Source of the DNA: Siphonodentalium dalli
Taxonomy: Eukaryota > Mollusca > Scaphopoda > Gadilida > Siphonodentaliidae
NCBI GenBank assembly: GCA_032622095.1
Contig: CP136067.1
Location: forward strand, 197,680,052-197,744,051
Reading direction: 5' to 3'
Length of the DNA: 64,000 nt
Shown: one piece after another, positions 1 through 34,144 of the stretch
How the letters are laid out: each line of letters opens with the position of its first letter
How positions within the stretch are numbered: position 1 is the first letter of the stretch
Program-made: the position numbers and the translations under genes
Notes under the pieces: generated by a model
The model's database searches: none
Told to the model about the DNA's origin: nothing
What the model saw: the letters and a program-made list of their open reading frames with translations, nothing else

Positions 1-668
1 TAATGGGTATCTGTATACATAGCATCATAATGGGTATCTGTATACAGAGCATCATAATGGGTAGCTGTATACATAGCTTCATAATGGGTATCTGTATACA
101 GAGCTTCATAATAATGGGTATCTGTATACATAGCTTCATAATGGGTATCTGTATACATAGCTTCATAATGGGTAGCTGTATACATAGCATCATAATGGGT
201 AGCTGTATACATAGCTTCATAATGGGTAGCTGTATACATAGCTTCATAATGGGTAGCTGTATACATAGCTACATAATGGGTAGCTGTATACATAGCTTCA
301 TAATGGGTATCTGTATACATAGCGTCATAATGGGTAGCTGTATACAGAGCTTCATAATGGGTAGCTGTATACATAGCTTCATAATGGGTAGCTGTATACA
401 TAGCTTCATAATGGGTATCTGTATACATAGCATCATAATGGGTAGCTGTATACAGAGCTTCATAATGGGTAGCTGTATACATAGCTTCATAATGGGTAGC
501 TGTATACAGAGCTTCATAATGGGTAGCTGTATACATAGCTTCATAATGGGTAGCTGTATACAGAGCTTCATAATGGGTAGCTGTATACATAGCTTCATAA
601 TGGGTAGCTGTATACATAGCTTCATAATGGGTAGCTGTATACATAGCTTCGTAATGGGTAGCTGTATA

Positions 669-1450
669 CATAGCTTCGTAATGGGTATCTGTATACATAG
701 CTTCATAATGGGTATCTGTATACAGAGCTTCATAATGGGTATCTGTATACATAGCTTCATAATGGGTATCTGTATACATAGCGTCATAATGGGTAGCTGT
801 ATACATAGCTTCATAATGGGTATCTGTATACATAGCTTCATAATGGGTATCTGTATACATAGCTTCATAATGGGTATCTGTATACATAGCTTCATAATGG
901 GTATCTGTATACAGAGCTTCATAATGGGTAGCTGTATACATAGCTTCATAATGGGTATCTGTATACATAGCTACATAATGGGTATCTGTATACATAGCAT
1001 CATAATGGGTAGCTGTATACATAGCTTCATAATGGGTATCTGTATACAGAGCATCATAATGGGTAGCTGTATACATAGCTTCATAATGGGTAGCTGTATA
1101 CAGAGCTTCATAATGGGTAGCTGTATACATAGCTTCATAATGGGTAGCTGTATACAGAGCTTCATAATGGGTAGCTGTATACATAGCTTCATAATGGGTA
1201 GCTGTATACATAGCTTCATAATGGGTAGCTGTATACATAGCTTCGTAATGGGTAGCTGTATACATAGCTTCATAATGGGTAGCTGTATACATAGCTACAT
1301 AATGGGTAGCTGTATACATAGCTTCGTAATGGGTATCTGTATACATAGCTTCATAATGGGTATCTGTATACAGAGCTTCATAATGGGTATCTGTATACAT
1401 AGCTTCATAATGGGTATCTGTATACATAGCGTCATAATGGGTAGCTGTAT
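669..1450. repeat. Higher-order repeat inside the 27-bp array (24-monomer, 648-bp shift)
   Basis: A string of seven variant monomers (plus-frame types SHFV, IHFI, IQFI, IHFI, IHVI, SHFI, IHFI) occurs twice. The marker TTCGTA ends at 680 and again at 1,328, exactly 648 bp or 24 monomers apart. A neighbouring YI-II marker pair is displaced by only 21 monomers, so whole monomers were lost or gained between the copies. This is what segmental duplication by unequal exchange produces. Confidence 0.8.
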
Positions 1451-4400
1451 ACATAGCTTCATAATGGGTATCTGTATACATAGCTTCATAATGGGTAGCT
1501 GTATACATAGCTTCATAATGGGTATCTGTATACATAGCTACATAATGGGTATCTGTATACATAGCATCATAATGGGTAGCTGTATACAGAGCTTCATAAT
1601 GGGTATCTGTATACAGAGCTACATAATGGGTAGCTGTATACATAGCTTCATAGTGGGTATCTGTATACATAGCGTCATAATGGGTGGCTGTATACAGAGC
1701 TTCATAATGGGTAGCTGTATACATAGCTTCATAGTGGGTATCTGTATACATAGCTTCATAATGGGTAGCTGTATACATAGCTTCATAATGGGTAGCTGTA
1801 TACATAGCTTCATAATGGGTAGCTGTATACATAGCTTCATAATGGGTATCTGTATACATAGCTTCATAATGGGTAGCTGTATACATAGCTTCATAATGGG
1901 TATCTGTATACATAGCTTCGTAATGGGTATCTGTATACAGAGCTTCATAATGGGTATCTGTATACATAGCTTCATAATGGGTATCTGTATACATAGCTTC
2001 ATAATGGGTATCTGTATACAGAGCTTCATAATGGGTAGCTGTATACATAGCTTCATAATGGGTAGCTGTATACATAGCTTCATAATGGGTATCTGTATAC
2101 ATAGCTTCGTAATGGGTAGCTGTATACAGAGCTTCATAATGGGTAGCTGTATACATAGCTTCATAATGGGTAGCTGCATACATAGCTTCATAATGGGTAG
2201 CTGTATACATAGCTTCATAATGGGTATCTGTATACATAGCTTCGTAATGGGTAGCTGTATACAGAGCTTCATAATGGGTAGCTGTATACATAGCATCATA
2301 ATGGGTAGCTGCATACATAGCTTCATAATGGGTATCTGTATACATAGCTTCATAATGGGTATCTGTATACATAGCATCATAATGGGTAGCTGTATACATA
2401 GCTTCATAATGGGTAGCTGTATACATAGCTTCATAATGGGTAGCTGTATACATAGCTTCGTAATGGGTAGCTGTATACATAGCTTCATAATGGGTATCTG
2501 TATACATAGCTTCGTAATGGGTAGCTGTATACATAGCTTCGTAATGGGTAGCTGTATACAGAGCTTCATAATGGGTATCTGTATACAGAGCTTCATAATG
2601 GGTAGCTGTATACATAGCTTCATAATGGGTATCTGTATACATAGCTTCATAATGGGTAGCTGTATACATAGCATCATAATGGGTAGCTGTATACATAGCT
2701 TCATAATGGGTAGCTGTATACATAGCTTCATAATGGGTATCTGTATACATAGCATCATAATGGGTAGCTGTATACATAGCATCATAATGGGTAGCTGTAT
2801 ACATAGCGTCATAATGGGTAGCTGTATACATAGCATCATAATGGGTAGCTGTATACATAGCTTCATAATGGGTAGCTGTATACATAGCTTCATAATGGGT
2901 ATCTGTATACATAGCATCATAATGGGTAGCTGTATACATAGCTTCATAATGGGTAGCTGTATACATAGCATCATAATGGGTAGCTGTATACATAGCTTCA
3001 TAATGGGTAGCTGTATACATAGCTTCATAATGGGTATCTGTATACATAGCTTCGTAATGGGTAGCTGTATACATAGCATCATAATGGGTAGCTGTATACA
3101 TAGCTTCATAATGGGTAGCTGTATACATAGCTTCATAGTGGGTATCTGTATACATAGCTTCATAATGGGTAGCTGTATACATAGCTTCGTAATGGGTAGC
3201 TGTATACATAGCTTCATAATGGGTATCTGTATACATAGCTTCATAATGGGTATCTGTATACAGAGCTTCATAATGGGTATCTGTATACAGAGCTTCATAA
3301 TGGGTATCTGTATACAGAGCTTCATAATGGGTATCTGTATACATAGCTTCATAATGGGTAGCTGTATACATAGCTTCATAATGGGTAGCTGTATACATAG
3401 CTTCATAATGGGTAGCTGTATACATAGCTTCATAATGGGTAGCTGTATACATAGCTTCATAATGGGTAGCTGTATACATAGCTTCATAATGGGTATCTGT
3501 ATACAGAGCTTCATAATGGGTAGCTGTATACATAGCTTCATAATGGGTAGCTGTATACATAGCTTCATAATGGGTAGCTGTATACATAGCTTCATAATGG
3601 GTAGCTGTATACATAGCTTCATAATGGGTATCTGTATACAGAGCTTCATAATGGGTAGCTGTATACATAGCTTCATAATGGGTATCTGTATACATAGCTT
3701 CATAATGGGTAGCTGTATACATAGCTTCATAATGGGTATCTGTATACATAGCTTCATAATGGGTAGCTGTATACAGAGCTTCATAATGGGTAGCTGTATA
3801 CATAGCTTCATAATGGGTATCTGTATACATAGCATCATAATGGGTATCTGTATACATAGCATCATAATGGGTATCTGTATACATAGCTTCATAATGGGTA
3901 GCTGTATACATAGCTTCATAATGGGTAGCTGTATACATAGCTTCATAATGGGTAGCTGTATACATAGCTTCATAATGGGTATCTGTATACATAGCTTCGT
4001 AATGGGTAGCTGCATACAGAGCTTCATAATGGGTAGCTGCATACATAGCTTCATAATGGGTATCTGTATACATAGCTTCATAATGGGTAGCTGTATACAT
4101 AGCTTCATAATGGGTATCTGCATACATAGCTTCGTAATGGGTATCTGCATACATAGCTTCATAATGGGTATCTGTATACATAGCTTCATAATAATGGGTA
4201 TCTGTATACATAGCTTCATAATGGGTATCTGTATACATAGCATCATAATGGGTATCTGCATACATAGCTTCATAATGGGTAGCTGTATACATAGCTTCAT
4301 AATGGGTATCTGTATACAGAGCTTCATAATGGGTAGCTGTATACATAGCTTCATAATGGGTTGCTGTATACATAGCTTCGTAATGGGTAGCTGTATACAT

Positions 4401-5559
4401 AGCATCATAATGGGTAGCTGTATACATAGCATCATAATGGGTAGCTGTATACATAGCATCATAATGGGTAGCTGTATACATAGCTTCATAATGGGTAGCT
4501 GTATACAGAGCTTCATAATGGGTAGCTGTATACATAGCTTCGTAATGGGTAGCTGTATACAGAGCTTCATAATGGGTAGCTGTATACATAGCATCATAAT
4601 GGGTATCTGTATACATAGCTTCGTAATGGGTATCTGTATACATAGCTTCGTAATGGGTATCTGTATACATAGCTTCATAATGGGTATCTGTATACATAGC
4701 TTCATAATGGGTAGCTGTATACATAGCTTCATAATGGGTATCTGTATACAGAGCTTCATAATGGGTATCTGTATACATAGCTTCGTAATGGGTATCTGTA
4801 TACATAGCTTCATAATGGGTATCTGTATACATAGCTTCATAATGGGTATCTGTATACAGAGCTTCATAATGGGTATCTGTATACAGAGCTTCATAATGGG
4901 TATCTGTATACATAGCTTCATAATGGGTATCTGTATACATAGCTTCGTAATGGGTATCTGTATACATAGCCTCATAATGGGTAGCTGTATACATAGCTTC
5001 ATAATGGGTATCTGTATACATAGCTTCGTAATGGGTATCTGTATACATAGCTTCGTAATGGGTATCTGTATACATAGCTTCATAATGGGTATCTGTATAC
5101 ATAGCTTCATAATGGGTAGCTGTATACATAGCTTCATAATGGGTATCTGTATACAGAGCTTCATAATGGGTATCTGTATACATAGCTTCGTAATGGGTAT
5201 CTGTATACATAGCTTCATAATGGGTATCTGTATACATAGCTTCATAATGGGTATCTGTATACAGAGCTTCATAATGGGTATCTGTATACAGAGCTTCATA
5301 ATGGGTATCTGTATACATAGCTTCATAATGGGTAGCTGTATACAGAGCTTCATAATGGGTAGCTGTATACATAGCTTCGTAATGGGTAGCTGTATACAGA
5401 GCTTCATAATGGGTAGCTGTATACATAGCTTCATAATGGGTATCTGTATACATAGCTTCATAATGGGTAGCTGTATACATAGCTTCATAATGGGTAGCTG
5501 TATACATAGCTTCGTAATGGGTAGCTGTATACATAGCTTCATAATGGGTAGCTGTATAC

Positions 5560-6100
5560 ATAGCTTCATAATGGGTGGCTGTATACATAGCTTCATAATG
5601 AGTATCTGTATACAGAGCTTCATAATGGGTATCTGTATACATAGCTTCATAATGGGTAGCTGTATACATAGCGTCATAATGGGTGGCTGTATACATAGCT
5701 TCATAATGAGTAGCTGTATACATAGCTTCATAATGGGTAGCTGTATACATAGCGTCATAATGGGTAGCTGTATACATAGCGTCATAATGGGTAGCTGTAT
5801 ACATAGCTTCATAATGGGTATCTGTATACATAGCTTCATAATGGGTATCTGTATACAGAGCTTCATAATGGGTATCTGTATACATAGCTTCATAATGGGT
5901 AGCTGTATACATAGCTTCATAATGGGTGGCTGTATACATAGCTTCATAATGAGTATCTGTATACATAGCTTCATAATGGGTAGCTGTATACATAGCGTCA
6001 TAATGGGTGGCTGTATACATAGCTTCATAATGAGTAGCTGTATACATAGCTTCATAATGGGTAGCTGTATACATAGCGTCATAATGGGTGGCTGTATACA
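5560..6100. repeat. Duplicated variant block in the 27-bp array (13-monomer shift)
   Basis: The rare GGG-to-GAG monomers occur at about 5,601, 5,709, 5,952 and 6,033. The first and third copies are 351 bp (13 monomers) apart, and the second block has lost one monomer relative to the first. The linked GGC and GTC variants recur in the same order, which shows block duplication rather than independent mutation. Confidence 0.75.
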
Positions 6101-7480
6101 TAGCTTCATAATGGGTATCTGTATACATAGCTTCATAATGGGTAGCTGTATACATAGCTTCATAATGGGTAGCTGTATACATAGCTTCATAATGGGTATC
6201 TGTATACATAGCTTCATAATGGGTAGCTGTATACAGAGCTTCATAATGGGTGGCTGTATACATAGCTTCATAATGGGTATCTGTATATATAGCTTCATAA
6301 TGGGTATCTGTATACAGAGCTTCATAATGGGTATCTGTATACAGAGCTTCATAATGGGTATCTGTATACATAGCTTCATAATGGGTAGCTGTATACATAG
6401 CTGCGTAATGGGTATCTGTATACATAGCGTCATAATGGGTAGCTGTATACATAGCTTCATAATGGGTATCTGTATACATAGCTTCATAATGGGTATCTGT
6501 ATACATAGCTTCATAATGGGTAGCTGTATACATAGCGTCATAATGGGTAGCTGTATACATAGCTTCATAATGGGTATCTGTATACATAGCGTCATAATGG
6601 GTAGCTGTATACATAGCTTCATAATGGGTATCTGTATACATAGCTTCATAATGGGTAGCTGTATACATAGCTTCATAATGGGTATCTGTATACATAGCTT
6701 CATAATGGGTAGCTGTATACAGAGCTTCATAATGGGTATCTGTATACATAGCTTCATAATGGGTAGCTGTATACATAGCTTCATAATGGGTATCTGTATA
6801 CATAGCTTCATAATGGGTAGCTGTATACATAGCTTCATAATGGGTAGCTGTATACATAGCTTCATAATGGGTAGCTGTATACATAGCTTCATAATGGGTA
6901 GCTGTATACATAGCTTCATAATGGGTAGCTGTATACATAGCCTCATAATGGGTAGCTGTATACATAGCTTCATAATGGGTATCTGTATACATAGCTTCAT
7001 AATGGGTATCTGTATACATAGCTTCGTAATGGGTAGCTGTATACATAGCTTCATAATGGGTATCTGTATACATAGCGTCATAATGGGTAGCTGTATACAT
7101 AGCTTCATAATGGGTATCTGTATACATAGCTTCATAATGGGTATCTGTATACATAGCTTCATAATGGGTAGCTGTATACATAGCTTCATAATGGGTATCT
7201 GTATACATAGCTTCATAATGGGTAGCTGTATACATAGCTTCATAATGGGTATCTGTATACATAGCTTCATAATGGGTAGCTGTATACATAGCTTCATAAT
7301 GGGTAGCTGTATACATAGCTTCATAATGGGTATCTATATACATAGCTTCATAATGGGTATCTGCATACATAGCTTCGTAATAATGGGTATCTGTATACAT
7401 AGCTTCATAATGGGTATCTGTATACATAGCTTCGTAATGGGTATCTGTATACATAGCTTCATAATGGGTAGCTGTATACA

Positions 7481-7670
7481 TAACATCATAATGGGTATCT
7501 GTATACATAGCTTCATAATGGGTATCTATATACATAGCTTCATAATGGGTAGCTGTATACATAGCTTCATAATGGGTATCTGTATACATAGCTTCATAAT
7601 GGGTAGCTGTATACATAACATCATAATGGGTATCTGTATACATAGCTTCATAATGGGTATCTATATACAT
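7481..7670. repeat. 5-monomer (135-bp) duplication in the 27-bp array
   Basis: Two rare linked variants, CATAACATC in place of CATAGCATC and CTATATAC in place of CTGTATAC, recur together. TAACATC starts at 7,481 and again at 7,616, exactly 135 bp or five monomers apart. Confidence 0.8.
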
Positions 7671-10600
7671 AGCTTCATAATGGGTAGCTGTATACATAGC
7701 TTCATAATGGGTATCTGCATACATAGCTTCATAATGGGTATCTGTATACATAGCTTCATAATGGGTAGCTGTATACATAGCTTCATAATGGGTATCTGTA
7801 TACATAGCTTCATATTAATGGGTATCTGTATACAGAGCTTCATAATGGGTATCTGTATACATAGCTTCATAATGGGTAGCTGTATACAGAGCTTCATAAT
7901 GGGTAGCTGTATACATAGCTTCATAATGGGTAGCTGTATACATAGCTTCATAATGGGTATCTGCATACATAGCTTCATAATGGGTAGCTGTATACATAGC
8001 TTCATAATGGGTAGCTGTATACATAGCTTCATAATGGGTATCTGTATACAGAGCTTCATAATGGGTATCTGTATACATAGCTTCATAATGGGTAGCTGTA
8101 TACAGAGCTTCATAATGGGTATCTGTATACAGAGCTTCATAATGGGTATCTGTATACATAGCTTCATAATGGGTAGCTGTATACATAGCTTCATAATGGG
8201 TATCTGCATACATAGCTTCATAATGGGTAGCTGTATACATAGCGTCATAATGGGTAGCTGTATACATAGCTTCATAATGGGTATCTGTATACATAGCTTC
8301 ATAATGGGTATCTGTATACATAGCTTCATAATGGGTAGCTGTATACATAGCTTCATAATGGGTAGCTGTATACATAGCTTCATAATGGGTAGCTGTATAC
8401 ATAGCTTCATAATGGGTATCTGTATACATAGCTTCATAATGGGTAGCTGTATACAGAGCTTCGTAATGGGTAGCTGCATACATAGCTTCATAATGGGTAT
8501 CTGTATACAGAGCTTCATAATGGGTAGCTGTATACATAGCGTCATAATGGGTAGCTGTATACATAGCTACATAATGGGTAGCTGTATACATAGCTTCATA
8601 ATGGGTAGCTGTATACAGAGCTTTATAATGGGTAGCTGTATACAGAGCTTCATAATGGGTAGCTGTATACATAGCTTCGTAATGGGTAGCTGCATACATA
8701 GCTTCATAATGGGTATCTGTATACAGAGCTTCATAATGGGTAGCTGTATACATAGCGTCATAATGGGTAGCTGTATACATAGCTACATAATGGGTAGCTG
8801 TATACATAGCTTCATAATGGGTAGCTGTATACAGAGCTTTATAATGGGTATCTGTATACATAGCTTCATAATGGGTAGCTGTATACATAGCTTCATAATG
8901 GGTATCTGTATACATAGCTTCATAATGGGTAGCTGTATACATAGCTTCATAATGGGTATCTCTATACATAGCTTCATAATGGGTATCTGTATACATAGCT
9001 TCATAATGGGTATCTGTATACATAGCGTCATAATGGGTATCTGTATACATAGCTTCATAATGGGTAGCTGTATACATAGCGTCATAATGGGTAGCTGTAT
9101 ACATAGCTTCATAATGGGTATCTGCATACATAGCTTCATAATGGGTAGCTGTATACATAGCTTCATAATGGGTAGCTGTATACATAGCTTCATAATGGGT
9201 ATCTGTATACATAGCTTCATAATGGGTATCTGTATACATAGCTTCATAATGGGTATCTGTATACATAGCTTCATAATGGGTAGCTGTATACAGAGCTTTA
9301 TAATGGGTAGCTGTATACAGAGCTTTATAATGGGTAGCTGTATACAGAGCTTTATAATGGGTAGCTGTATACATAGCTTCATAATGGGTAGCTGTATACA
9401 TAGCTTCGTAATGGGTATCTGTATACATAGCTTCATAATGGGTAGCTGTATACATAGCTTCATAATGGGTATCTGTATACATAGCTTCATAATGGGTAGC
9501 TGTATACATAGCGTCATAATGGGTATCTGCATACATAGCGTCATAATGGGTAGCTGTATACATAGCTTCATAATGGGTAGCTGTATACAGAGCTTCATAA
9601 TGGGTATCTGTATACATAGCTTCATAATGGGTATCTGTATACATAGCTTCATAATGGGTATCTGTATACATAGCTTCATAATGGGTAGCTGTATACAGAG
9701 CGTCATAATGGGTAGCTGTATACATAGCTTCATAATGGGTAGCTGTATACATAGCTTCATAATGGGTATCTGTATACATAGCTTCATAATGGGTAGCTGT
9801 ATACAGAGCTTCATAATGGGTATCTGTATACAGAGCTTCATAATGGGTAGCTGTATACATAGCGTCATAATGGGTATCTGTATACATAGCTTCATAATGG
9901 GTATCTGCATACATAGCTTCATAATGGGTATCTGTATACATAGCGTCATAATGGGTAGCTGTATACATAGCTTCATAATGGGTATCTGTATACATAGCTT
10001 CATAATGGGTATCTGTATACAGAGCTTCATAATGGGTAGCTGTATACAGAGCTTCATAATGGGTATCTGTATACATAGCGTCATAATGGGTAGCTGTATA
10101 CATAGCTTCATAATGGGTATCTGTATACATAGCTTCATAATGGGTATCTGTATACATAGCTTCATAATGGGTATCTGTATACAGAGCTTCATAATGGGTA
10201 GCTGTATACAGAGCTTCATAATGGGTATCTGTATACATAGCTTCATAATGGGTATCTGTATACATAGCTTCATAATGGGTATCTGTATACATAGCTTCAT
10301 AATGGGTATCTGTATACATAGCTTCATAATGGGTATCTGTATACATAGCTTCATAATGGGTAGCTGTATACATAGCTTCGTAATGGGTAGCTGTATACAT
10401 AGCTTCATAATGGGTAGCTGTATACATAGCTTCATAATGGGTATCTGTATACAGAGCTTCGTAATGGGTAGCTGTATACAGAGCTTCATAATGGGTATCT
10501 GTATACATAGCTTCATAATGGGTATCTGCATACATAGCTTCGTAATGGGTAGCTGTATACATAGCTTCATAATGGGTAGCTGTATACAGAGCTTCATAAT

Positions 10601-11265
10601 GGGTAGCTGTATACATAGCTTCATAATGGGTAGCTGTATACAGAGCTTCATAATGGGTAGCTGTATACATAGCGTCATAATGGGTAGCTGTATACATAGC
10701 TTCATAATGGGTAGCTGTATACATAGCTTCATAATGGGTATCTGTATACATAGCTTCATAATGGGTAGCTGTATACATAGCGTCATAATGGGTAGCTGTA
10801 TACATAGCTTCATAATGGGTAGCTGTATACATAGCTTCATAATGGGTAGCTGTATACATAGCTTCATAATGGGTAGCTGTATACATAGCTTCATAATGGG
10901 TATCTGTATACATAGCTTCATAATGGGTAGCTGTATACATAGCTTCATAATGGGTAGCTGTATACAGAGCTTCATAATGGGTAGCTGTATACATAGCTTC
11001 ATAATGGGTAGCTGTATACATAGCTTCATAATGGGTATCTGTATACATAGCTTCATAATGGGTAGCTGTATACATAGCTTCATAATGGGTAGCTGTATAC
11101 ATAGCTTCATAATGGGTAGCTGTATACATAGCTTCATAATGGGTATCTGCATACATAGCTTCATAATGGGTATCTGCATACATAGCTTCATAATGGGTAT
11201 CTGCATACATAGCTTCATAATGGGTATCTGCATACATAGCTTCATAATGGGTATCTGTATACATA

Positions 11266-11840
11266 GCGTCATAATGGGTAGCTGTATACATAGCTTCATA
11301 ATGGGTATCTGTATACATAGCTTCATAATGGGTAGCTGTATACATAGCTTCATAATGGGTATCTGCATACATAGCTTCATAATGGGTAGCTGTATACATA
11401 GCTTCATAATGGGTATCTGCATACATAGCTTCATAATGGGTATCTGCATACATAGCTTCATAATGGGTATCTGTATACATAGCGTCATAATGGGTAGCTG
11501 TATACATAGCTTCATAATGGGTATCTGTATACATAGCTTCATAATGGGTATCTGCATACATAGCTTCATAATGGGTATCTGCATACATAGCTTCATAATG
11601 GGTATCTGTATACATAGCGTCATAATGGGTAGCTGTATACATAGCTTCATAATGGGTATCTGTATACATAGCTTCATAATGGGTATCTGCATACATAGCT
11701 TCATAATGGGTATCTGCATACATAGCTTCATAATGGGTATCTGTATACATAGCGTCATAATGGGTATCTGTATACATAGCTTCATAATGGGTATCTGCAT
11801 ACATAGCTTCATAATGGGTATCTGTATACATAGCGTCATA
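11266..11840. repeat. 5-monomer higher-order units and CTGCATAC-variant cluster
   Basis: The GCGTC variant falls at 11,266, 11,482, 11,617, 11,752 and 11,833. The spacings are 216, 135, 135 and 81 bp, all multiples of 27. Between them the CTGCATAC variant appears in pairs at constant offsets. This is a short run of a 135-bp higher-order repeat, with the C variant strongly concentrated from about 11,140 to 11,800. Confidence 0.8.
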
Positions 11841-14800
11841 ATGGGTAGCTGTATACATAGCTTCATAATGGGTATCTGTATACATAGCTTCATAATGGGT
11901 ATCTGTATACATAGCTTCATAATGGGTATCTGTATACATAGCTTCATAATGGGTATCTGTATACATAGCTTCATAATGGGTATCTGTATACATAGCTTCA
12001 TAATGGGTAGCTGTATACATAGCTTCATAATGGGTAGCTGTATACATAGCTTCATAATGGGTATCTGCATACATAGCTTCATGATGGGTAGCTGTATACA
12101 TAGCTTCATAATGGGTAGCTGTATACATAGCTTCATAATGGGTAGCTGTATACAGAGCTTCATAATGGGTAGCTGTATACATAGCTTCATAATGGGTAGC
12201 TGTATACATAGCTTCATAATGGGTAGCTGTATACATAGCTTCATAATGGGTAGCTGTATACATAGCTTCATAATGGGTAGCTGTATACATAGCTTCATAA
12301 TGGGTAGCTGTATACATAGCTTCATAATGGGTAGCTGTATACAGAGCTTTATAATGGGTATCTGCATACATAGCTTCATAATGGGTATCTGTATACATAG
12401 CTTCATAATGGGTATCTGTATACATAGCTTCATAATGGGTAGCTGTATACATAGCTTCATAATGGGTATCTGTATACATAGCGTCATAATGGGTAGCTGT
12501 ATACATAGCTTCATAATGGGTATCTGTATACATAGCTTCATAATGGGTATCTGTATACATAGCTTCATAATGGGTAGCTGTATACATAGCTTCATAATGG
12601 GTATCTGTATACATAGCGTCATAATGGGTAGCTGTATACATAGCTTCATAATGGGTAGCTGTATACATAGCTTCATAATGGGTATCTGTATACATAGCTT
12701 CATAATGGGTATCTGTATACATAGCTTCATAATGGGTATCTGTATACATAGCTTCATAATGGGTAGCTGTATACAGAGCTTCATAATGGGTAGCTGTATA
12801 CAGAGCTTTATAATGGGTATCTGTATACATAGCTTCATAATGGGTAGCTGTATACATAGCTTCGTAATGGGTAGCTGTATACATAGCTTCATAATGGGTA
12901 GCTGTATACATAGCTTCATAATGGGTATCTGTATACATAGCGTCATAATGGGTAGCTGTATACATAGCTTCATAATGGGTAGCTGTATACATAGCTTCAT
13001 AATGGGTATCTGTATACATAGCTTCATAATGGGTATCTGTATACATAGCTTCATAATAATGGGTATCTGTATACATAGCTTCATAATGGGTATCTGTATA
13101 CATAGCTTCATAATGGGTATCTGTATACATAGCTTCATAATGGGTAGCTGTATACATAGCTTCATAATGGGTAGCTGTATACATAGCTTCATAATGGGTA
13201 GCTGTATACATAGCTTCGTAATGGGTAGCTGTATACATAGCTTCATAATGGGTATCTGTATACATAGCTTCATAATGGGTAGCTGTATACATAGCTACAT
13301 AATGGGTATCTGTATACATAGCTTCATAATGGGTATCTGTATACAGAGCTTCATAATGGGTATCTGTATACATAGCTTCATAATGGGTATCTGTATACAT
13401 AGCTTCATAATGGGTAGCTGTATACATAGCTTCATAATGGGTATCTGTATACATAGCATCATAATGGGTAGCTGTATACATAGCTTCATAATGGGTATCT
13501 GTATACATAGCTTCATAATGGGTATCTGTATACATAGCATCATAATGGGTAGCTGTATACAGAGCTTCATAATGGGTAGCTGTATACAGAGCTACATAAT
13601 GGGTAGCTGTATACATAGCATCATAATGGGTAGCTGTATACAGAGCTACATAATGGGTATCTGTATACATAGCATCATAATGGGTAGCTGTATACATAGC
13701 TTCATAATGGGTATCTGTATACATAGCTTCATAATGGGTAGCTGTATACATAGCATCATAATGGGTAGCTGTATACATAGCTACATAATGGGTATCTGTA
13801 TACATAGCTTCATAATGGGTATCTGTATACATAGCTTCATAATGGGTGGCTGTATACATAGCTTCATAATGGGTATCTGTATACATAGCATCATAATGGG
13901 TGGCTGTATACATAGCATCATAATGGGTGGCTGTATACATAGCATCATAATGGGTAGCTGTATACATAGCTTCATAATGGGTAGCTGTATACATAGCTTC
14001 ATAATGGGTGGCTGTATACATAGCTTCATAATGGGTAGCTGTATACATAGCTTCATAATGGGTATCTGTATACATAGCTTCATAATGGGTAGCTGTATAC
14101 ATAGCATCATAAAGGGTAGCTGTATACATAGCTTCATAATGGGTAGCTGTATACATAGCTTCATAATGGGTAGCTGTATACATAGCTTCATAATGGGTAT
14201 CTGTATACAGAGCTTCATAATGGGTATCTGTATACATAGCTACATAATGGGTATCTGTATACATAGCTTCATAATGGGTATCTGTATACATAGCTTCATA
14301 ATGGGTAGCTGTATACATAGCTTCATAATGGGTATCTGTATACAGAGCTTCATAATGGGTATCTGTATACATAGCTTCATAATGGGTAGCTGTATACATA
14401 GCTTCATAATGGGTAGCTGTATACATAGCTTCGTAATGGGTATCTGTATACATAGCTTCATAATGGGTATCTGTATACATAGCTTCATAATGGGTATCTG
14501 TATACAGAGCTTCATAATGGGTATCTGTATACAGAGCTTCATAATGGGTAGCTGTATACAGAGCTTCATAATGGGTAGCTGTATACATAGCTTCATAATG
14601 GGTAGCTGTATACATAGCTTCGTAATGGGTATCTGTATACATAGCTTCATAATGGGTATCTGTATACATAGCTTCATAATGGGTATCTGTATACAGAGCT
14701 TAATAATGGGTATCTGTATACAGAGCTTCATAATGGGTAGCTGTATACAGAGCTTCATAATGGGTAGCTGTATACATAGCTTCGTAATGGGTATCTGTAT

Positions 14801-17800
14801 ACATAGCTTCATAATGGGTAGCTGTATACATAGCTTCGTAATGGGTAGCTGTATACATAGCTTCGTAATGGGTATCTGTATACATAGCTTCATAATGGGT
14901 AGCTGTATACATAGCTTCATAATGGGTATCTGTATACAGAGCTTCATAATGGGTAGCTGTATACATAGCTTCATAATGGGTAGCTGTATACATAGCTTCG
15001 TAATGGGTATCTGTATACATAGCTTCATAATGGGTATCTGTATACATAGCTTCATAATGGGTAGCTGTATACAGAGCTTCATAATGGGTAGCTGTATACA
15101 TAGCTTCATAATGGGTAGCTGTATACATAGCTTCATAATGGGTATCTGTATACAGAGCTTCATAATGGGTATCTGTATACATAGCTACATAATGGGTATC
15201 TGTATACATAGCTTCATAATGGGTATCTGTATACATAGCTTCATAATGGGTATCTGTATACAGAGCTTCATAATGGGTATCTGTATACAGAGCTTCATAA
15301 TGGGTAGCTGTATACAGAGCTTCATAATGGGTGGCTGTATACATAGCTTCGTAATGGGTAGCTGTATACATAGCGTCATAATGGGTATCTGTATACATAG
15401 CGTCATAATGGGTAGCTGTATACATAGCGTCATAATGGGTATCTGCATACATAGCTTCATAATGGGTATCTGTATACATAGCTTCATAATGGGTATCTGT
15501 ATACATAGCATCATAATGGGTAGCTGTATACATAGCTTCATAATGGGTAGCTGTATACATAGCTTCATATTAATGGGTATCTGTATACATAGCTTCATAA
15601 TGGGTATCTGTATACATAGCTTCATAATGGGTAGCTGTATACATAGCATCATAATGGGTAGCTGTATACATAGCTTCATAATGGGTATCTGTATACATAG
15701 CATCATAATGGGTAGCTGTATACATAGCTTCATAATGGGTAGCTGTATACATAGCTTCATATTAATGGGTATCTGTATACATAGCTTCATAATGGGTATC
15801 TGTATACAGAGCTTCATAATGGGTAGCTGTATACAGAGCTTCATAATGGGTGGCTGTATACATAGCTTCATAATGGGTAGCTGTATACATAGCGTCATAA
15901 TGGGTAGCTGTATACATAGCTTCATAATGGGTATCTGTATACATAGCTTCATAATGGGTATCTGTATACATAGCTTCATAATGGGTAGCTGTATACATAG
16001 CATCATAATGGGTATCTGTATACATAGCGTCATAATGGGTAGCTGTATACATAGCGTCATAATGGGTATCTGTATACATAGCTTCGTAATGGGTATCTGT
16101 ATACATAGCTTCATAATGGGTAGCTGTATACATAGCTTCATAATGGGTATCTGTATACATAGCTTCATAATGTGTATCTGTATACAGAGCTTCATAATGG
16201 GTAGCTGTATACATAGCTTCATAATGGGTATCTGTATACATAGCTTCATAATGGGTAGCTGTATACATAGCTACATAATGGGTAGCTGCATACATAGCTT
16301 CATAATGGGTATCTGTATACATAGCGTCATAATGGGTATCTGTATACATAGCTTCATAATGGGTATCTGTATACATAGCTTCATAATGGGTAGCTGTATA
16401 CATAGCTACATAATGGGTAGCTGTATACATAGCTTCATAATGGGTATCTGTATACATAGCTTCATAATGGGTAGCTGTATACAGAGCTTCATAATGGGTA
16501 TCTGTATACATAGCTTCATAATGGGTAGCTGTATACATAGCTACATAATGGGTATCTGTATACATAGCTTCATAATGGGTAGCTGTATACATAGCTTCAT
16601 AATGGGTAGCTGTATACATAGCTACATAATGGGTATCTGTATACATAGCTTCATAATGGGTATCTGTATACATAGCTTCATAATGGGTATCTGTATACAT
16701 AGCTTCATAATGGGTAGCTGTATACATAGCGTCATAATGGGTAGCTGTATACATAGCTACATAATGGGTATCTGTATACATAGCTTCATAATGGGTAGCT
16801 GTATACATAGCTTCATAATGGGTATCTGTATACATAGCTTCATAATGGGTATCTGCATACATAGCTTCATAATGGGTAGCTGTATACATAGCTACATAAT
16901 GGGTATCTGTATACATAGCTTCATAATGGGTAGCTGTATACATAGCTTCATAATGGGTATCTGTATACATAGCGTCATAATGGGTAGCTGTATACATAGC
17001 TTCATAATGGGTAGCTGTATACATAGCTTCATAATGGGTATCTGTATACAGAGCTTCATAATGGGTATCTGTATACATAGCGTCATAATGGGTAGCTGTA
17101 TACATAGCTTCATAATGGGTAGCTGTATACATAGCTTCATAATGGGTATCTGTATACAGAGCTTCATAATGGGTAGCTGTATACAGAGCTTCATAATGGG
17201 TAGCTGTATACATAGCTTCATAATGGGTAGCTGTATACATAGCTACATAATGGGTATCTGTATACATAGCATCATAATAATGGGTAGCTGTATACATAGC
17301 TTCGTAATGGGTAGCTGTATACATAGCTTCATAATGGGTAGCTGTATACATAGCTTCATAATGGGTAGCTGTATACAGAGCTTCATAATGGGTATCTGTA
17401 TACATAGCTTCATAATGGGTATCTGTATACATAGCTTCATAATGGGTAGCTGTATACATAGCGTCATAATGGGTAGCTGTATACATAGCTTCATAATGGG
17501 TAGCTGTATACATAGCTTCATAATGGGTAGCTGTATACAGAGCTTCATAATGGGTAGCTGTATACATAGCTTCATAATGGGTAGCTGTATACATAGCTTC
17601 ATAATGGGTAGCTGTATACATAGCTTCATAATAATGGGTATCTGTATACATAGCTTCATAATGGGTAGCTGTATACATAGCATCATAATGGGTAGCTGTA
17701 TACATAGCATCATAATGGGTATCTGTATACATAGCTTCATAATGGGTAGCTGTATACATAGCTTCATAATGGGTAGCTGTATACATAGCTTCATAATGGG

Positions 17801-18689
17801 TATCTGTATACATAGCTTCATAATGGGTATCTGTATACATAGCTTCATAATGGGTATCTGTATACATAGCGTCATAATGGGTAGCTGTATACATAGCTTC
17901 ATAATGGGTATCTGTATACATAGCGTCATAATGGGTAGCTGTATACATAGCTTCATAATGGGTAGCTGTATACAGAGCTTCGTAATGGGTATCTGTATAC
18001 ATAGCTTCATAATGGGTAGCTGTATACATAGCTTCATAATGGGTAGCTGTATACATAGCTTCATAATAATGGGTATCTGTATACATAGCGTCATAATGGG
18101 TATATGTATACATAGCTTCATAATGGGTAGCTGTATACATAGCTTCATAATGGGTATCTGTATACATAGCTTCGTAATGGGTATCTGTATACATAGCTTC
18201 GTAATGGGTATCTGTATACAGAGCTTCATAATGGGTATCTGTATACAGAGCTTCATAATGGGTAGCTGTATACATAGCTTCATAATGGGTATCTGTATAC
18301 ATAGCTTCATAATGGGTAGCTGCATACATAGCTTCATAATGGGTAGCTGTATACATAGCTTCATAATGGGTATCTGTATACAGAGCTTCATAATGGGTAG
18401 CTGTATACATAGCTTCATAATGGGTATCTGTATACATAGCTTCATAATGGGTATCTGTATACATAGCTTCGTAATGGGTATCTGCATACATAGCTTCATA
18501 ATGGGTAGCTGCATACATAGCTTCATAATGGGTATCTGCATACATAGCTTCATAATGGGTATCTGTATACATAGCTTCATAATGGGTATCTGTATACATA
18601 GCTTCGTAATGGGTATCTGCATACATAGCTTCATAATGGGTATCTGTATACATAGCTTCATAATGGGTATCTGTATACAGAGCTTCGTA

Positions 18690-19345
18690 ATGGGTATCTG
18701 TATACAGAGCTTCATAATGGGTATCTGTATACATAGCTTCATAATGGGTATCTGTATACATAGCTTCATAATGGGTATCTGTATACATAGCTTCATAATG
18801 GGTATCTGTATACATAGCTTCATAATGGGTATCTGTATACATAGCTTCATAATGGGTATCTGTATACAGAGCTTCGTAATGGGTATCTGTATACATAGCT
18901 TCATAATGGGTATATGTATACATAGCTTCGTAATGGGTATCTGTATACATAGCTTCATAATGGGTATCTGCATACATAGCTTCATAATGGGTATCTGTAT
19001 ACAGAGCTTCATAATGGGTATCTGTATACATAGCTTCATAATGGGTATCTGTATACATAGCTTCATAATGGGTATCTGTATACATAGCTTCATAATGGGT
19101 ATCTGTATACATAGCTTCATAATGGGTATCTGTATACATAGCTTCATAATGGGTATCTGTATACATAGCTTCATAATGGGTATCTGTATACATAGCTTCA
19201 TAATGGGTATCTGTATACATAGCTTCATAATGGGTATCTGTATACATAGCTTCATAATGGGTATATGTATACATAGCTTCATAATGGGTATCTGCATACA
19301 TAGCTTCATAATGGGTATCTGTATACATAGCTTCATAATGGGTAT
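18690..19345. repeat. Homogeneous terminal segment of the 27-bp array
   Basis: Nearly all of the last roughly 24 monomers carry the GTATCTG form, most of them also CAT and TTCATA. The rest of the array freely mixes GTATCTG and GTAGCTG. The segment ends sharply at unique DNA. Confidence 0.75.
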
Positions 19346-19751
19346 CTCAAAACATATATACGCGCAAGATTTCCTTACAAATTCGTTGATATAGGTTACA
19401 CTGGTCTAAATACGGTTCGGAGTAACATCTATGGGATGCGGGAGGAGAGATATATAGGGGAGAGTTAAATAGACACTGGACCATGACTGGTCAATAGCCT
19501 TGTGTGCTTTTTGCATAAAACAAACATCACACCCCTTCCCTATGACTTCCCATAGGTAAAATATCCATTGGCACATGCATTAACCCTTTGTAGTGAAGTT
19601 TGAATTTTGTGATGTGGTCTAAAATATGACATTATTTTTAGTGCGGTTCTGACACTAGTTACGAAAACACAAGATTTAAAGGCGAATTCCCTGCTAGATG
19701 GACATGATTTGTTATACATAAAAAGTTTCCGCAAATGTCAATCTTTCAGAT
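19346..19751. other. Non-coding flank of the satellite
   Basis: Unique sequence with no convincing gene. A TTAACCCTTTG stretch at 19,580 resembles the ends of the TTAA elements downstream, but I found no matching inverted end, so it may be a solo or broken terminus. Confidence 0.5.
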
Positions 19752-19904
19752 TTAACCCTTTACCCAACAATCCGGCCAAAACCGGCCAAATAAAGCTTCA
19801 ACAGCCTAAAATATCTTCGGTCTGTCTCAATAGAACCATACAAATATGGATATCATTGGAAACTGCTCCTTGACCACATTGTGATAGTTACAGTTATGCC
19901 CTGT

Positions 19905-19973
19905 GCCAATGCATTCTCTTATATATGCGAGTCGACCATAGGTCGCCTCGCATATATAAGAGAATGCATTGGC
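19905..19973. repeat. 69-bp near-perfect palindrome, copy 1
   Basis: Arms of 33 nt beginning GCCAATGCATTCTC and ending GAGAATGCATTGGC surround a 3-nt loop (ATA at 19,938-19,940), with one mismatch in the inner stem. The outer 27 bp of each arm are exact. It lies inside TTAA element 1. Confidence 0.9.
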
Positions 19974-20052
19974 CTAAAAAAAATATTTTTTTAACACTTT
20001 TTACCATTTTTTCTTACATTCTTTAACAATTTTATAATTTTTAATGTGTTTA

Positions 20053-20121
20053 GCCAATGCATTCTCTTATATATGCGAGGCGACCTATGGTCGACTCGCA
20101 TATATAAGAGAATGCATTGGC
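20053..20121. repeat. 69-bp near-perfect palindrome, copy 2 (inverted relative to copy 1)
   Basis: Same 69-bp fold-back as at 19,905. Its asymmetric inner stem (GGCGACC-TAT-GGTCGAC) is the reverse complement of copy 1, so the two copies face each other. It is followed by GCACAGGG close to the 3' end of TTAA element 1. Confidence 0.9.
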
Positions 20122-20378
20122 ACAGGGCCCTTCTGTTGGGTAAAGGGTTAAAGACAATTTTGGACCTAGGATTTATATTATAAACTAAAACGTTTGCACT
20201 GAGGCCTATGGAAGACATTTACACCAGTGTAACCTATAGCGCGGAAAATACGCGTTCCTTTTAATCTATTGTTAGATGAATTTGAGATCGTTTCGCATAA
20301 GTGTAGGTTCAAGTATCTGTTACTATATAAAGACCATGAGAACATTTATAGCGGAAACGTTTATGGTACTTCGTGATT

Positions 20379-20768
20379 TTAACTCTTTCAGTGCCAGGGT
20401 TTTTTTGGGTTGAATTTTTTTTGGGTATGTTTAAGCATGCTATAGCAAATTTAAAAACAAACTTGATGAAACCTTAGGGGCATGTTATAACACAAAACTA
20501 TCACCAAGTATTCATAGTGATAATTTTGATGCCCATGAAAAACGTAAGATTCCCTGGCACTAAACCTACAAAATAAGTCTGTTAAAGAATATAAGAAAAA
20601 ATTATTAAAATTGTAAAATATAATAACAAATGATGAAAAATTGTTAGGCCAATGCATTCTCTTATATATGCGAGGCGACCCATGGTCGACTCGCATATAT
20701 AAGATAATGCATTGGCACAGGGTATATGGGTTGATACACAAATCGGACCTGGCACTCAAAAGGGTTAA
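20379..20768. mobile_element. TTAA-flanked miniature element 2 (piggyBac-like MITE)
   Basis: It begins TTAACTCTTTCAGTGCCAGG and ends CCTGGCACTCAAAAGGGTTAA-like, giving imperfect inverted ends of about 20 bp with TTAA at both edges, 390 bp in total. It carries one 69-bp palindrome (20,648-20,716) and the same GCACAGGG segment as element 1. Its terminal repeats differ from element 1 beyond the first ten bases. No transposase is present. Confidence 0.75.
20648..20716. repeat. 69-bp palindrome, copy 3
   Basis: Same module as at 19,905 and 20,053, in the orientation of copy 2. The right arm has one extra mismatch (AAGATAATGC instead of AAGAGAATGC). It is embedded in TTAA element 2. Confidence 0.9.
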
Positions 20769-22023
20769 TGAAACAAAACAGAAGAGAAAGCAGTGCGTGA
20801 AGTTTTTAAATATATAGACCCAACCATCGTGTTCAAAGTTGTATTTGTTATGACCTCAATGCGTATTTATGGTATATAATGCTTATGAAAACTTTGTTCA
20901 AGTATTTATCGACATATTTCGAAACCGGGAAAATTCAAAAGTAAATATTATAAGGTGTACATGTATACACAGTTTGGAGCGGAAACTGGTATGTGCATTT
21001 AAATTTAAAGTCAAAAAGAACATCACAACCGAATTCGTCTTCTCCAGTTTAAACCTCCGAGCCTAATCGGGCCTAAGTGGGTGCATGCTTGTGGTCGTTC
21101 AATGGCTATATCTGATTGACATATCTATAATTATACATGTATACGATGAGATGGGCAATCAATAAAACTACCCAATTACCATGCAGACCACAATCAGAAC
21201 TGTAGAATGGTTGTTGGCACGCCATGAATTACCGAGAATATGTACATACATATAGCAACTCTCGTGTGGTGATGAATCAATTGTAACCTGATCACACCCA
21301 AGCCACCGCTCTCACGTTAGGCACGCGGTCAACCGAGATTATTTACACCTCCATCCATTGATTTGATTGTATAACTATTGTAAACGGCGGACTAGAAAAG
21401 ATGGATTCGCCATTTCAGGTCAAGCTGTCCTAAACCCGTTTTGCCATCGAATGAAGGCTATAAAACGCACAGCATGATCGCCATTGACAAAACAAATAGC
21501 CCGATGCCACCTACAGGTGTGAGCGCCACTCGCTTATGAAGTGTCAATCAACATATGCTCTTTATAATATTTGTCGATTTTATAGCTGTTACCATTAGGC
21601 AATATTAGGCTCGACGATATATATGTACATGTATATACAACTGCTAAATCAGGGTCTGACTGAACCTGGTTTAAAATAAAGGTGACGAATGTGTCAGTTA
21701 GATATGTGGACTTAGACTTGCGGTCTGGAGTTTAAACTGTGGTTTTAGCTGTGAAACTACGGTTTTAACCTAGATGTTTCCGTAAATCAGGTTCAAACAG
21801 TGGATATGACGAAACCGGCCGTGGGTGTTATTTATTGTTTAACCTTGGTGTTTGATACGTGAATGGGGTAATCTACGGTCCGATCTGGCACCGAATCAGT
21901 CGAACTTTCATAAACTAATATTAATCTTACTATGCATCAAGCAAAAGAAAAAAGAAAATATCACCACCATTGAACACTCATCGCGAAAATCCACAAAAGC
22001 TTCCACCAGTTGAATACAACACA
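20769..22023. other. Intergenic sequence, no feature recognised
   Basis: AT-rich sequence without a credible ORF, RNA gene or repeat that I can identify. It includes several ATACATGTAT-type stretches. Confidence 0.5.
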
Positions 22024-24056
22024 AGCTAACATTATTTGATGTAATGGAGAGCTAACATTATTGACAGCCGATTTATGTGTAATACAGAGCTAACATTATT
22101 GACAGCCGATTTCGATGTAATGCAGAGCTAACACTATTGACAGCCGATTTCGATGTAATGCAGAGCTAACATTATTGACAGCCGATTTCGATGTAATTCT
22201 GAGCTAATATTATTGACAGCCGATTTATGTGTAATGCAGAGCTAACATTATTGACAGCCGATTTCGATGTAACGCAGAGCTAACATTATTGACAGCCGAT
22301 TTCGATGTAATGCAGAGCTAACATTATTGACAGCCGATTTCGATGTAATTCTGAGCTAATAGTATTGACAGCCGATTTCGATGTAATTCTGAGCTAATAT
22401 TATTGACAGCCGATTTCGATGTAATGCAGAGCTAACATTATTGACAGCTGATTTCGATGTAATGCAGAGGTAACATTATTGACAGCCGATTTCGATGTAA
22501 TGCAGAGCTAACATTATTGACAGCCGATTTATGTGTAATGCAGAGGTAACATTATTGACAGCCGATTTCGATGTAATTCTGAGCTAATATTATTGACAGC
22601 CGATTTCGATGTAATTCTGAGCTAATATTATTGACAGCCGATTTCGATGTAATGCAGAGCTAACATTATTGACAGCTGATTTCGATGTAATGCAGAGGTA
22701 ACATTATTGACAGCCGATTTCGATGTAATGCAGAGCTAACATTATTGACAGCCGATTTATGTGTAATGCAGAGGTAACATTATTGACAGCCGATTTCGAT
22801 GTAATGCAGAGCTAACATTATTGACAGCCGATTTATGTGTAATGCAGCGCTAACATTATTGACAGCCGATTTCGATGTAATTCTGAGCTAATATTATTGA
22901 CAGCCGATTTCGATGTAATTCTGAGCTAATATTATTGACAGCCGATTTCGATGTAATGCAGAGCTAACATTATTGACAGCTGATTTCGATGTAATGCAGA
23001 GGTAACATTATTGACAGCCGATTTCGATGTAATTCAGAGCTAACATTATTGACAGCCGATTTATGTGTAATGCAGCGCTAACATTATTGACAGCCGATTT
23101 CGATGTAATTCTGAGCTAATATTATTGACAGCCGATTTCGATGTAATTCTGAGCTAACATTATTGACAGCCGATTTCTATGTAATGCAGAGCTAACACTA
23201 TTGACAGCTGATTTCGATGTAACGCAGAGCTAACATTATTGACAGCTGATTTCGATGTAATGCAGAGCTAATATTATTGACAGCCGATTTATGTGTAATG
23301 TAGAGCTAATATTATTGACAGCCGATTTATGTGTAATGCAGAGCTAACATTATTGACAGCTGATTTCGATGTAATGCAGAGCTAACATTATTGACAGCCG
23401 ATTTATGTGTAATGTAGAGTTAACATTATTGACAGCCGATTTATGTGTAATGTAGAGCTAATATTATTGACAGCCGATTTATGTGTAATGCAGAGCTAAC
23501 ATTATTGACAGCCGATTTATGTGTAATGCAGAGCTAACATTATTGACAGCCGATTTATGTGTAATGTAGAGCTAATATTATTGACAGCCGATTTATGTGT
23601 AATGCAGAGCTAACATTATTGACAGCCGATTTATGTGTAATGTAGAGTTAACATTATTGACAGCCGATTTCGATGTAATGCAGAGCTAATATTATTGACA
23701 GCCGATTTATGTGTAATGTAGAGTTAACATTATTGACAGCCGATTTCGATGTAATGCAGAGCTAACATTATTGGCAGCCGATTTCGATGTAATGCAGAGC
23801 TAACATTATTGACAGCCGATTTCGATGTAATTCTGAGCTAACATTATTGACAGCCGATTTCGATGTAATGCATAGCTAACATTATTGACAGCCGATTTAG
23901 ATGTAATTCTGAGCTAACATTATTGACAGCCGATTTCTATGTAATGCATAGCTAACATTATTGACAGCCGATTTCGATGTAATGCATAGCTAACATTATT
24001 GACAGCCGATTTCGATGTAATGCAGAGCTAACATTATTGACAGCCGATTTCGATGT
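22024..24056. repeat. 38-bp satellite array, about 53 monomers
   Basis: The unit contains AGCTAACATTATTGACAGCC, then GATTTCGATGTAATGC or the variant GATTTATGTGTAATGC. Other variants are TTCTGAGCTAAT, GCAGAGGTAAC and CAGCTGATTT. Monomers keep a constant 38-bp length but are noticeably diverged. Linked variants repeat at 228 bp (CAGCTG at 22,445 and 22,673) and 304 bp (22,977), i.e. 6- and 8-monomer higher-order shifts. The GATTTATG type dominates from about 23,280 to 23,640. The first copy, at 22,024, is internally deleted. Confidence 0.95.
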
Positions 24057-25149
24057 GAGGTCAAATGGTAAACAAATGTTACTATATGATATTTTTCCTA
24101 TGACCTTGACCGTAAAAATTGTCCTAGTGGCCCAGTCCGTTTGATGCACCATTGATTCCACCATGAGTTAACGTCGTTTCTTTAGACACAAGGCGCATTG
24201 GTTGACAAGAGTGGGCGTTTTCAACTTTTCTCCAAATATTTGATGCCGTTGACATGGAAACCTGATTTTATCCCGACAAAGGACCCCTCACCCGGTACCC
24301 CCTTCAAATGATTTCCTTTATAACTAAGCAACATATATTTGAAGTTCCATGCTTTAGTTACTAAAGTCACAATATCGCGTCCATTAAAGGTACTCAATCC
24401 GATCAGACGATCCCCATACAATCAAAATACAACAACAACATTTCTTCAAAATACGCTTTAGTTATCAGAATCGATTTATTGCAACAAAATAATGCTAACC
24501 TCTGTCAACTATGGTATCAAATTTCGCAAAAAGTTTTATTTATCAACATTTTGTTCAACAAAATATGGCCGTATTATCACTAAAGTATCACGAAATTTGA
24601 CCATGTTACCACTTGATTTTAGAGTTATCCATCTTCATGGACAAATTTGTCCGAGACCCTCCGTTTGGCCACGTGTTTCTGGGCCACATATTATTACACA
24701 TCTGGAGAAATAACAAACTTCAAAAATCGATATCTGATCACTCTGAGCTTTGATGGTGGATTCCTCGACTCGAATCAAATATGTGTTACCCCCGATGCCA
24801 AAGATATACGGGCATTGGCGAACTACTGCATGACTTTTGCATGTGTATTTCTTGGCTTTAAGGTTATGGTACCAAATATTGAATGTTCAGTCGCATATTA
24901 TTGTTTAAGAAACTCAGATATGAGCGATAATTTGTGTATATTAATTTTGTTTGTCGTGACGACCAGAGTACCGGAGAATGCAGCAGTGTTAGGCAGTGAT
25001 TACAGTCATATTGTAACAAGGACCCGTCGCACATGAACGACTTTGACTTGATTGCTGTATCCTACATGTATCTCAATATATATATAAGAATTAGGTTTCT
25101 GTACATGTATGTGCCGGGATATATTATATATATATACATGTATATATTT
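24057..25149. other. Intergenic sequence, no feature recognised
   Basis: Several short ORFs occur here, the longest 129 codons at 24,647-25,036. None shows a recognisable domain or repeat relationship, so I do not call a gene. Confidence 0.45.
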
Positions 25150-27190: not shown

Positions 27191-27522
27191 TATGTACTTG
27201 TTCGGGTGCGTGAAACTGATATGTCAGTATTCAGGTACTATGCCAATTGGAGGAATGCAAAATTCTACTAACACCGTCGAAAATCTGAAGCAAATCGACC
27301 GTGCCGCTCCATTGAAAACGTCGTCTGAACTGCTAGTATATATATATATATCCCGACTGTTTAAGTTGTTATATTAGACCTGGCACTAAGATGGTCAATG
27401 CGAAGTGAGTAATGTTACATTTTAAGTGTTCATCGATTCTGAATTTCAATTAGAATTTTAGAAGAATAGGATTTTGATCCAGGAAGGTAAATTAGTTTTA
27501 AGGGTAGCGTACGTACAACTGG

Positions 27523-27669
27523 TCTTATTGAGTGTGAGCATAGTCTTATTGAGTGTGAGCATAGTCTTATTGAGTGTGAGCATAGTCTTATTGAGTGTGA
27601 GCATAGTCTTATTGAGTGTGAGCATAGTCTTATTGAGTGTGAGCATAGTCTTATTGCGTGTGAACGTAG
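27523..27669. repeat. 21-bp tandem repeat, 7 copies
   Basis: TCTTATTGAGTGTGAGCATAG repeats at 27,523, 27,544, 27,565, 27,586, 27,607, 27,628 and 27,649. Six copies are identical and the last is degenerate. The period is a multiple of three, so ORFs of 60-150 codons appear on both strands; I do not consider them genes. Confidence 0.95.
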
Positions 27670-28023
27670 TCGATAATAGTGGACTTCTGACAATGTTGGT
27701 GATCGATGCGAGTCAAGTCTTGTCACACATAAAAACTCTAATATATATATATATATATCATAATGATGCTACTCTATTGACATCTATCGTTTCTGACAAG
27801 CAGATATTATATCTCACTGCATGCTTAATGATGTTATGTTCAATTCAACCGAATGTTGCCACTTCGCAAATTGACGTAGTTCCTGAACACAGTAATGTTT
27901 TTATTTCATTTGGATAAGTCTAAGTAAATTAGTGAACACAGTTCTTTGTATGTTTTCGAGATTGTTGTCACGCGAGTTTGGTATAGTATCGTACTAAATT
28001 TAGCGCAGTACTATTATATATAT

Positions 28024-28640: not shown

Positions 28641-29306
28641 TAATTCATGGCTAGGAGTTGACTATGCCAAAATAGTGGTCCGAGAGGAGGAATAGTGCTG
28701 TGAGTGGAGTAATCCTTATCGGGGACCACTAATTTGGTATTTTGTCAACGACAAGACATACATTATTCATATATTATATCGAACATTGTTGTCAATGCTC
28801 ACACACTTTCTGTATTTGAGTTTGTCATATTTTGGAAATCGGTCTCGCATCTTCAATTTACGACAATCTTTTGACGACGGCAAGGGAGCATAACTATGTT
28901 ATTAGTTACACCTAATAGCATATATTCATGATGCATGCATTTATTTCTATAAATACGTCATTAGTAAAGCCATTTTGACGAAAATTTAACAGATAACTTG
29001 TTTATCTTTGATGAAAACGGAAAAGGATATTATAAATAACTTTCACTGGCATTACAAATTAGGACTGTCTGCTTGCCAAATAAACGGAAAAAAAACTATT
29101 AAACACATTGGATAGCTATGGTCGGACATTTGAAAGATCATTAAATTCACCAACAAGTCTAATGATATACCGATATTGCAACAAGTAACGTACAATATTT
29201 AATTTCAGATAGGCCGTGTCTTCAGGCGGCAATCTGATTGCGCGAAATGAGTCTGTTGCTATAATAGAAAACGAACATTGGCGAGTATGAATCCTACTGG
29301 GTTACT
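28641..29306. other. Intergenic sequence, no feature recognised
   Basis: No gene is visible. A weak fold-back (GCCAAAATAGTGGTCC at about 28,663 with GGACCACTAATTTGG at about 28,721) is the only structure seen. Confidence 0.45.
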
Positions 29307-34069: not shown

Positions 34070-34112
34070 ATATACAACCTTGTCCGAACGTGTTATATAT
34101 ATATGTGTATAG

Positions 34113-34144
<32 letters not shown>

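Follow-up and report, generated by a model that had tools for sequence, protein, structure and literature searches.

A 27-bp tandem array in the scaphopod Siphonodentalium dalli carries a giant open reading frame that is very probably not a gene

In the concerted-evolution model of satellite DNA described in a review, monomer variants spread along the array (PMC5615363). A study of Meloidogyne satellites describes junctions between different satellites that lie at conserved boxes, the minimal junction measuring about 20 bp (PMC3694981). We analyzed a stretch of 64,000 nucleotides from Siphonodentalium dalli (assembly GCA_032622095.1, contig CP136067.1, positions 197,680,052 to 197,744,051 of the forward strand; hereafter the window), which begins with an array of 27-bp repeats spanned by a giant open reading frame (ORF). 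Like the eukaryotic satellite and minisatellite arrays of that review (PMC5615363), this array is made of head-to-tail monomers that are about 95% identical, with variants spread along its length; it differs from them in its short 27-bp monomer, divisible by three, and in having no clear higher-order repeat. The divisibility by three produces long open frames, which sets the array apart from satellites in general. The likeness to the Meloidogyne satellites (PMC3694981) concerns an idea, namely the proposal that exchange breakpoints may be confined to a part of the monomer; the evidence there consists of junctions between different satellites, whereas here it is a one-sided allele association within a single 27-bp family. 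A search of the open-licence literature with narrow terms found no paper on satellites or tandem repeats with open frames, from which we make no claim of absence in print.

By wrap-around alignment, the first 19347 bp of the window form a single array of monomers arranged head to tail, 715 of them complete (705 with 27 bp, 10 with 30 bp) and a last one, from 19336, partial; Tandem Repeats Finder delimited it almost identically (1..19344, period 27, 715.3 copies, 94% matches, 0% indels). The array extends beyond the window on the left, so that 19347 bp is the part inside it. The preliminary description had counted about 716 monomers over 1-19394; the monomers agree with our count, but the repeat ends at 19347, the sequence departing from it at 19348, with just the open frame going on to 19394. 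As a repeat, the array is far beyond chance: a 19-base core, allowing up to 3 mismatches, matched 715 times (200 of the 715 matches listed) against 0.16 expected from shuffles.

The mean pair identity between monomers was 0.948. Among the 705 monomers of 27 bp, site 10 was split almost evenly (G 361, T 344); the further common alleles were G at site 20 (110 copies), G, A, and C at site 24 (49, 40, and 2), G at site 27 (53), C at site 14 (40), A at site 25 (20), G at site 9 (13), and T at site 26 (7), all the remaining ones being present in 1 to 4 copies each. These alleles combine into 47 distinct 27-bp monomer types that are little clustered. Compared with the consensus carrying T at site 10 (T10), 23 distinct alleles occur over bases 1-27 of the 715 monomers. 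No allele was seen at 11 of the 27 positions, where 9.8 such positions were expected (P=0.30); invariant positions are thus no more numerous than chance, and we claim no protein-binding box in the monomer. The consensus monomer lacks CpG; one is created by the common G allele of site 24 and another by that of site 27. A at site 24 (24A) goes with G10 of the next monomer, as G at that site (24G) does, which fits CpG decay from 24G to 24A.

Within the array, the three plus frames contain 728, 955, and 0 stops and the three minus frames 641, 4, and 23. The open plus frame, whose codons are ATG, GGT, ATC or AGC, TGT, ATA, CAT, AGC, TTC, and ATA, has no stop in the 6,447 codons that belong to the array; it passes the array end by 47 bases, with its last 15 codons in unrelated flank, and terminates at a TAG there. 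Site 10, the commonest variant (about 50:50), is an isoleucine/serine swap in this frame. The earlier observation is confirmed: the plus frame has 0 stops in 6,463 codons, and two minus frames are mostly open, with 4 and 23 stops. Twenty of the 23 have the spelling that the common A allele of site 25 (20 copies) creates, and in the frame with 4 stops, 3 are spelled as in the TATTAAT insertions considered below. The longest minus ORFs reach 2601, 2284, 1901, 1496, and 1188 aa; the longest stop-to-stop frame of the window outside the 27-bp array is 182 aa.

We conclude that the array is very probably a non-coding satellite of the minisatellite type and that its giant open frame is not a gene. 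Because the period is divisible by three, each frame shows the same nine codons along the whole array. In 100,000 shuffled 27-mers with the base composition of the monomer, at least three of the six frames were open with a probability of 0.64 and at least one plus frame with a probability of 0.92. Three of the six codon sets hold no stop, as is often the case for monomers composed like this one, and the open frames would follow from this.

The plus frame would then stay open since nearly no single substitution gives a stop and frame-shifting indels are rare, as they are in two other arrays of the window, with periods of 38 and 62 bp. Indeed, only 1 of the 81 single substitutions in its consensus makes a stop (TGT to TGA), whereas the mostly open minus frames have 5 and 3 such substitutions; across the monomers actually present, stops would result from an average of 1.5% of substitutions in the plus frame and of 6.0% and 3.5% in these minus frames. 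For 23 distinct alleles, 0.22-0.35 plus-frame stops are expected (the upper value being 23 x 0.0152) and 0 were observed, zero thus being the likeliest outcome. Stops are not measurably depleted beyond the mutational expectation.

Replacement and silent changes were counted in the manner of dN/dS. The plus frame has 20 replacement and 3 silent alleles, where 18.8 and 4.0 (and 0.22 stop) are expected at the observed transition share, and both of the mostly open minus frames likewise come close to their expected counts. This neutral ratio speaks against coding: protein-level constraint is absent. The preliminary description had taken the non-synonymous nature of nearly all variants as weakening a coding role. 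Its statement was right (20 of 23 distinct alleles), but the argument does not carry, as random mutation alone would give 18.8. Its preference for a mutational, non-coding origin over a translated giant nonapeptide is supported by the expected openness of the frame and the neutral replacement/silent ratio. Before selection is invoked for giant ORFs in tandem repeats with a period divisible by three, one should count how many open frames shuffled monomers would give and how many stops lie a single substitution away.

The length variants follow a strict pattern. All ten are +3 at the monomer junction before TAAT, and no other length change occurs in 715 monomers, which agrees with the earlier statement that there is no frame-breaking indel and that every length change adds three bases at the ATAAT junction. 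Such rarity of indels is found elsewhere in the window: the 38- and 62-bp arrays have one indel each (1/53 and 1/31 copies), about as in the 27-bp array (10/715), and the 68-bp array (6 copies) has two, of 3 and 1 bp. Few indels are usual in the arrays of this window unless a homopolymer is present, but those found in the other arrays mostly have lengths that three does not divide.

Six of the insertions are spelled TCATAA followed by TAAT, one TCGTAA followed by TAAT, and three TCATAT followed by TAAT. The monomer after the insertion has T at site 10 in 9/10 cases against 0.49 overall (p=0.0098, uncorrected for the seven lags inspected), and the insertion-bearing monomer itself has it in 6/10. 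Two of the TATTAAT monomers stand close together in nearly identical surroundings (Table 1) and, judged by their sequence, this pair is a local copying of an insertion allele. The shared downstream T allele and this near-identical pair indicate that the ten +3 monomers most likely derive from one or few insertions that were then copied around, ten independent events being unneeded; the number of origins is what we infer from these contexts. Local exchange between monomers would have spread them.

Recurrent independent slippage at ATAAT as the sole slippable motif, with homogenisation clearing all other indels, is the alternative that survives best, and we regard it as possible but unlikely. 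It would account for the location of all ten insertions at the ATAAT junction and for the fact that 7/10 duplicate a triplet perfectly to give TAATAAT; the three TATTAAT copies, however, require a further substitution, and the downstream T allele common to 9/10 insertions speaks against it. The claim that ATA/AAT is the only motif able to slip is wrong. The self-match of ATAAT at lag 3 is 2 bases, no more than that of GGG (lag 1) or TATA (lag 2), and longer self-matches (3 to 5 bases) are offered by ATACATA at lag 4, GTATCTGTAT at lag 6, CATAGCTTCATA at lag 8, and, in G10 monomers, TAGCTGTATACATAGCT at lag 12. Nor is the removal of indels by homogenisation supported, as the nearby 46-48-bp array, which contains a C-run, retains 48 indel events, 39 of them at that run.

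The retention of these same events also makes it very improbable that the regularity of the 27-bp array is an assembly artefact in which indels were polished out, and the array itself keeps its 47 distinct monomers with little clustering. Least credible of all is a protein-coding plus frame, kept free of stops and frameshifts by selection and giving a giant repeat protein of more than 6,463 residues, built of a hydrophobic, cysteine-bearing nonapeptide: such a reading would fit the 6,447 array codons without a stop, the ten in-frame length changes, and the presence of stops in the two other mostly open frames, but the absence of stops is expected anyway, the replacement/silent ratio is neutral, the commonest variant exchanges isoleucine for serine, no +/-6 or +/-12 variants occur although these keep the frame and lags 6 and 12 are among the longest self-matches, the last 15 codons lie in unrelated flank, and the parts searched have no Pfam family (540 aa of the open plus frame, E up to 0.1) and no relative in the PDB (270 aa, E up to 1).

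Several observations weigh against a non-coding satellite with few insertion origins. The slip motifs of the monomer do not predict zero non-multiple-of-3 changes in 715 monomers; explaining the +3-only pattern takes few origins, for which the support is an uncorrected p of ~0.01. Unlike the ten insertions here, the lone indel of the 38-bp array (1 bp), that of the 62-bp array (2 bp), and one of the pair in the 68-bp array have lengths not divisible by three. A stop load as low as that of the plus frame was found in just 7% of the open frames from shuffled 27-mers, making this frame somewhat lucky. Finally, the short 25-bp array, whose period is not divisible by three, is still spanned by two open frames.

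For the non-coding satellite, turnover would be local, reshuffling alleles among monomers and not duplicating large blocks, with gene conversion or unequal exchange as the presumed molecular process. Exact monomer identity was 0.21 at lag 1 and 0.23 at lag 5, against 0.165 by chance; no clear higher-order repeat emerged over lags 1-299, the best being 5 monomers with that exact match of 0.23. Four exact runs of at least 8 monomers were present, the longest of 12, where the longest run in each of 20 shuffles was 6 to 8. Allele clustering was mostly gone by about 20 monomers, and the mean identity was flat farther out. Exchange looks local, and there is scant evidence of large blocks having been duplicated recently.

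Allele associations inside the 27-bp unit also allow a look at where exchange may break the array. After a 24G monomer, site 10 of the next monomer is T in only 9/49 cases (p=5.7e-6), and after a 24A monomer in 9/41 (p=0.0003), while site 10 of the same monomer has T in 27/49 and 19/41, respectively; one monomer further on, the values are 27/49 and 14/41 (p=0.055 for the latter). With the site 24 variants pooled, T10 occurs in 18/90 of the next monomers (13 bp away) and in 46/90 of the same monomers (14 bp away), against 49% overall, and the one-sided difference for 24G and 24A pooled is 0.31 (block-bootstrap 95% interval 0.16-0.47; the interval for 24A alone touches 0). The Fisher tests behind these p values ignore copying, and the pair of sites was picked after the data had been seen. 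The two alleles may also not be independent, 24A perhaps being a CpG-decayed 24G. When conversion with uniform breakpoints was simulated (512 accepted runs, four settings), the 24G asymmetry appeared in 1 run in the same direction and in 2 in either direction.

The one-sided association hints at uneven exchange breakpoints, which might fall mainly between sites 10 and 24, where the 8-bp palindrome TGTATACA is located, so that an exchanged block would begin at site 24 and end at site 10 one monomer further on. We consider this doubtful because two rarer alleles point the opposite way, being associated with site 10 within their own monomer only: A at site 25 goes with T10 of the same monomer in 5/20 cases (p=0.039) and of the next in 12/20, and T at site 26 in 0/7 (p=0.015) and 3/7. 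Neither G at site 20 nor G at site 27 is associated with site 10 on one side or the other, which also tells against it.

When four stretches of 136 bases were folded as single-stranded DNA, the z-scores were weak and variable (-2.8, -1.1, -2.1, and -1.6). Exact patterns found no copy in viral_contigs (27 bases) or genome_contigs (23 bases), results of little weight as neither is a eukaryotic genome collection, and a distant BLAST search of 645 bases against phages, a non-eukaryotic collection and with the low-complexity filter on, gave no match. Pfam, searched at E up to 0.1, had no family for nine translated stretches outside the array, Rfam reported nothing at gathering scores in 19300..64000, and ARAGORN predicted no tRNA in the window.

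Table 1 Coordinates of the repeat arrays, open frames, and length variants in the window
Feature	Position	Strand	Remarks
27-bp satellite array	1..19347	+	Consensus TAATGGGTA[G/T]CTGTATACA[T/G]AGCTTCA
Open frame, 6,463 codons, repeated nonapeptide MG[S/I]CI[H/Q]SFI	3..19394	+	ORF listing; judged non-gene
Longest minus open stretch, 2601 aa	3..7805	-	Within one mostly open minus frame; runs off the window edge
Second-longest minus open stretch, 2284 aa	7815..14669	-	ORF listing
30-bp monomers	First 82..111; others start at 4162, 7351, 7786, 13027, 15541, 15733, 17248, 17602, 18037	+
Two TATTAAT insertion monomers, seven monomers apart	15541..15762	+	Contexts (sites 9-27, five monomers each) differ at one site
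38-bp array, 53 copies	22034..24056	+	Period not divisible by 3; one 1-bp indel, in first monomer/edge; no stop-to-stop frame of at least 70 aa
21-bp array, 7.1 copies, 0 indels	27522..27671	+	Period divisible by 3; spanned by three open frames (1 plus, 2 minus)
25-bp array, 6.1 copies, 0 indels, 152 bp	38668..38819	+	Period not divisible by 3; two minus open frames span the array
62-bp array, 31 copies	42802..44723	+	One 2-bp indel, in first monomer; no stop-to-stop frame of at least 70 aa
46-48-bp array with C-run	45214..47741	+	48 indel events against 46-bp consensus: 37 non-multiple of 3, 39 at the C-run

The window is array-rich over 22034..47741, with tandem units of 38, 68, 21, 25, 62, and 46-48 bp that appear unlike each other. 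The 46-48-bp array, whose period is not fixed at a multiple of three, holds frames of up to 167 aa; inside it, four perfect 27-bp units (45452..45558) look like a truncated form of its own monomer.

Just to the right of the 27-bp array, at 19905..20716, a near-perfect palindrome of 69 bp (GCCAATGCATTCTCTTATATATGCGAG...) occurs three times, each copy with 33-bp arms that are 94-97% complementary and a 3-bp center; it may represent a small mobile or foldback element. Farther on, a long inverted pair (30017..34791) has diverged arms (30017-30569 against 34185-34791, in blocks of 75-95%) with about 3.6 kb between them, and these arms are possibly the ends of an old element.

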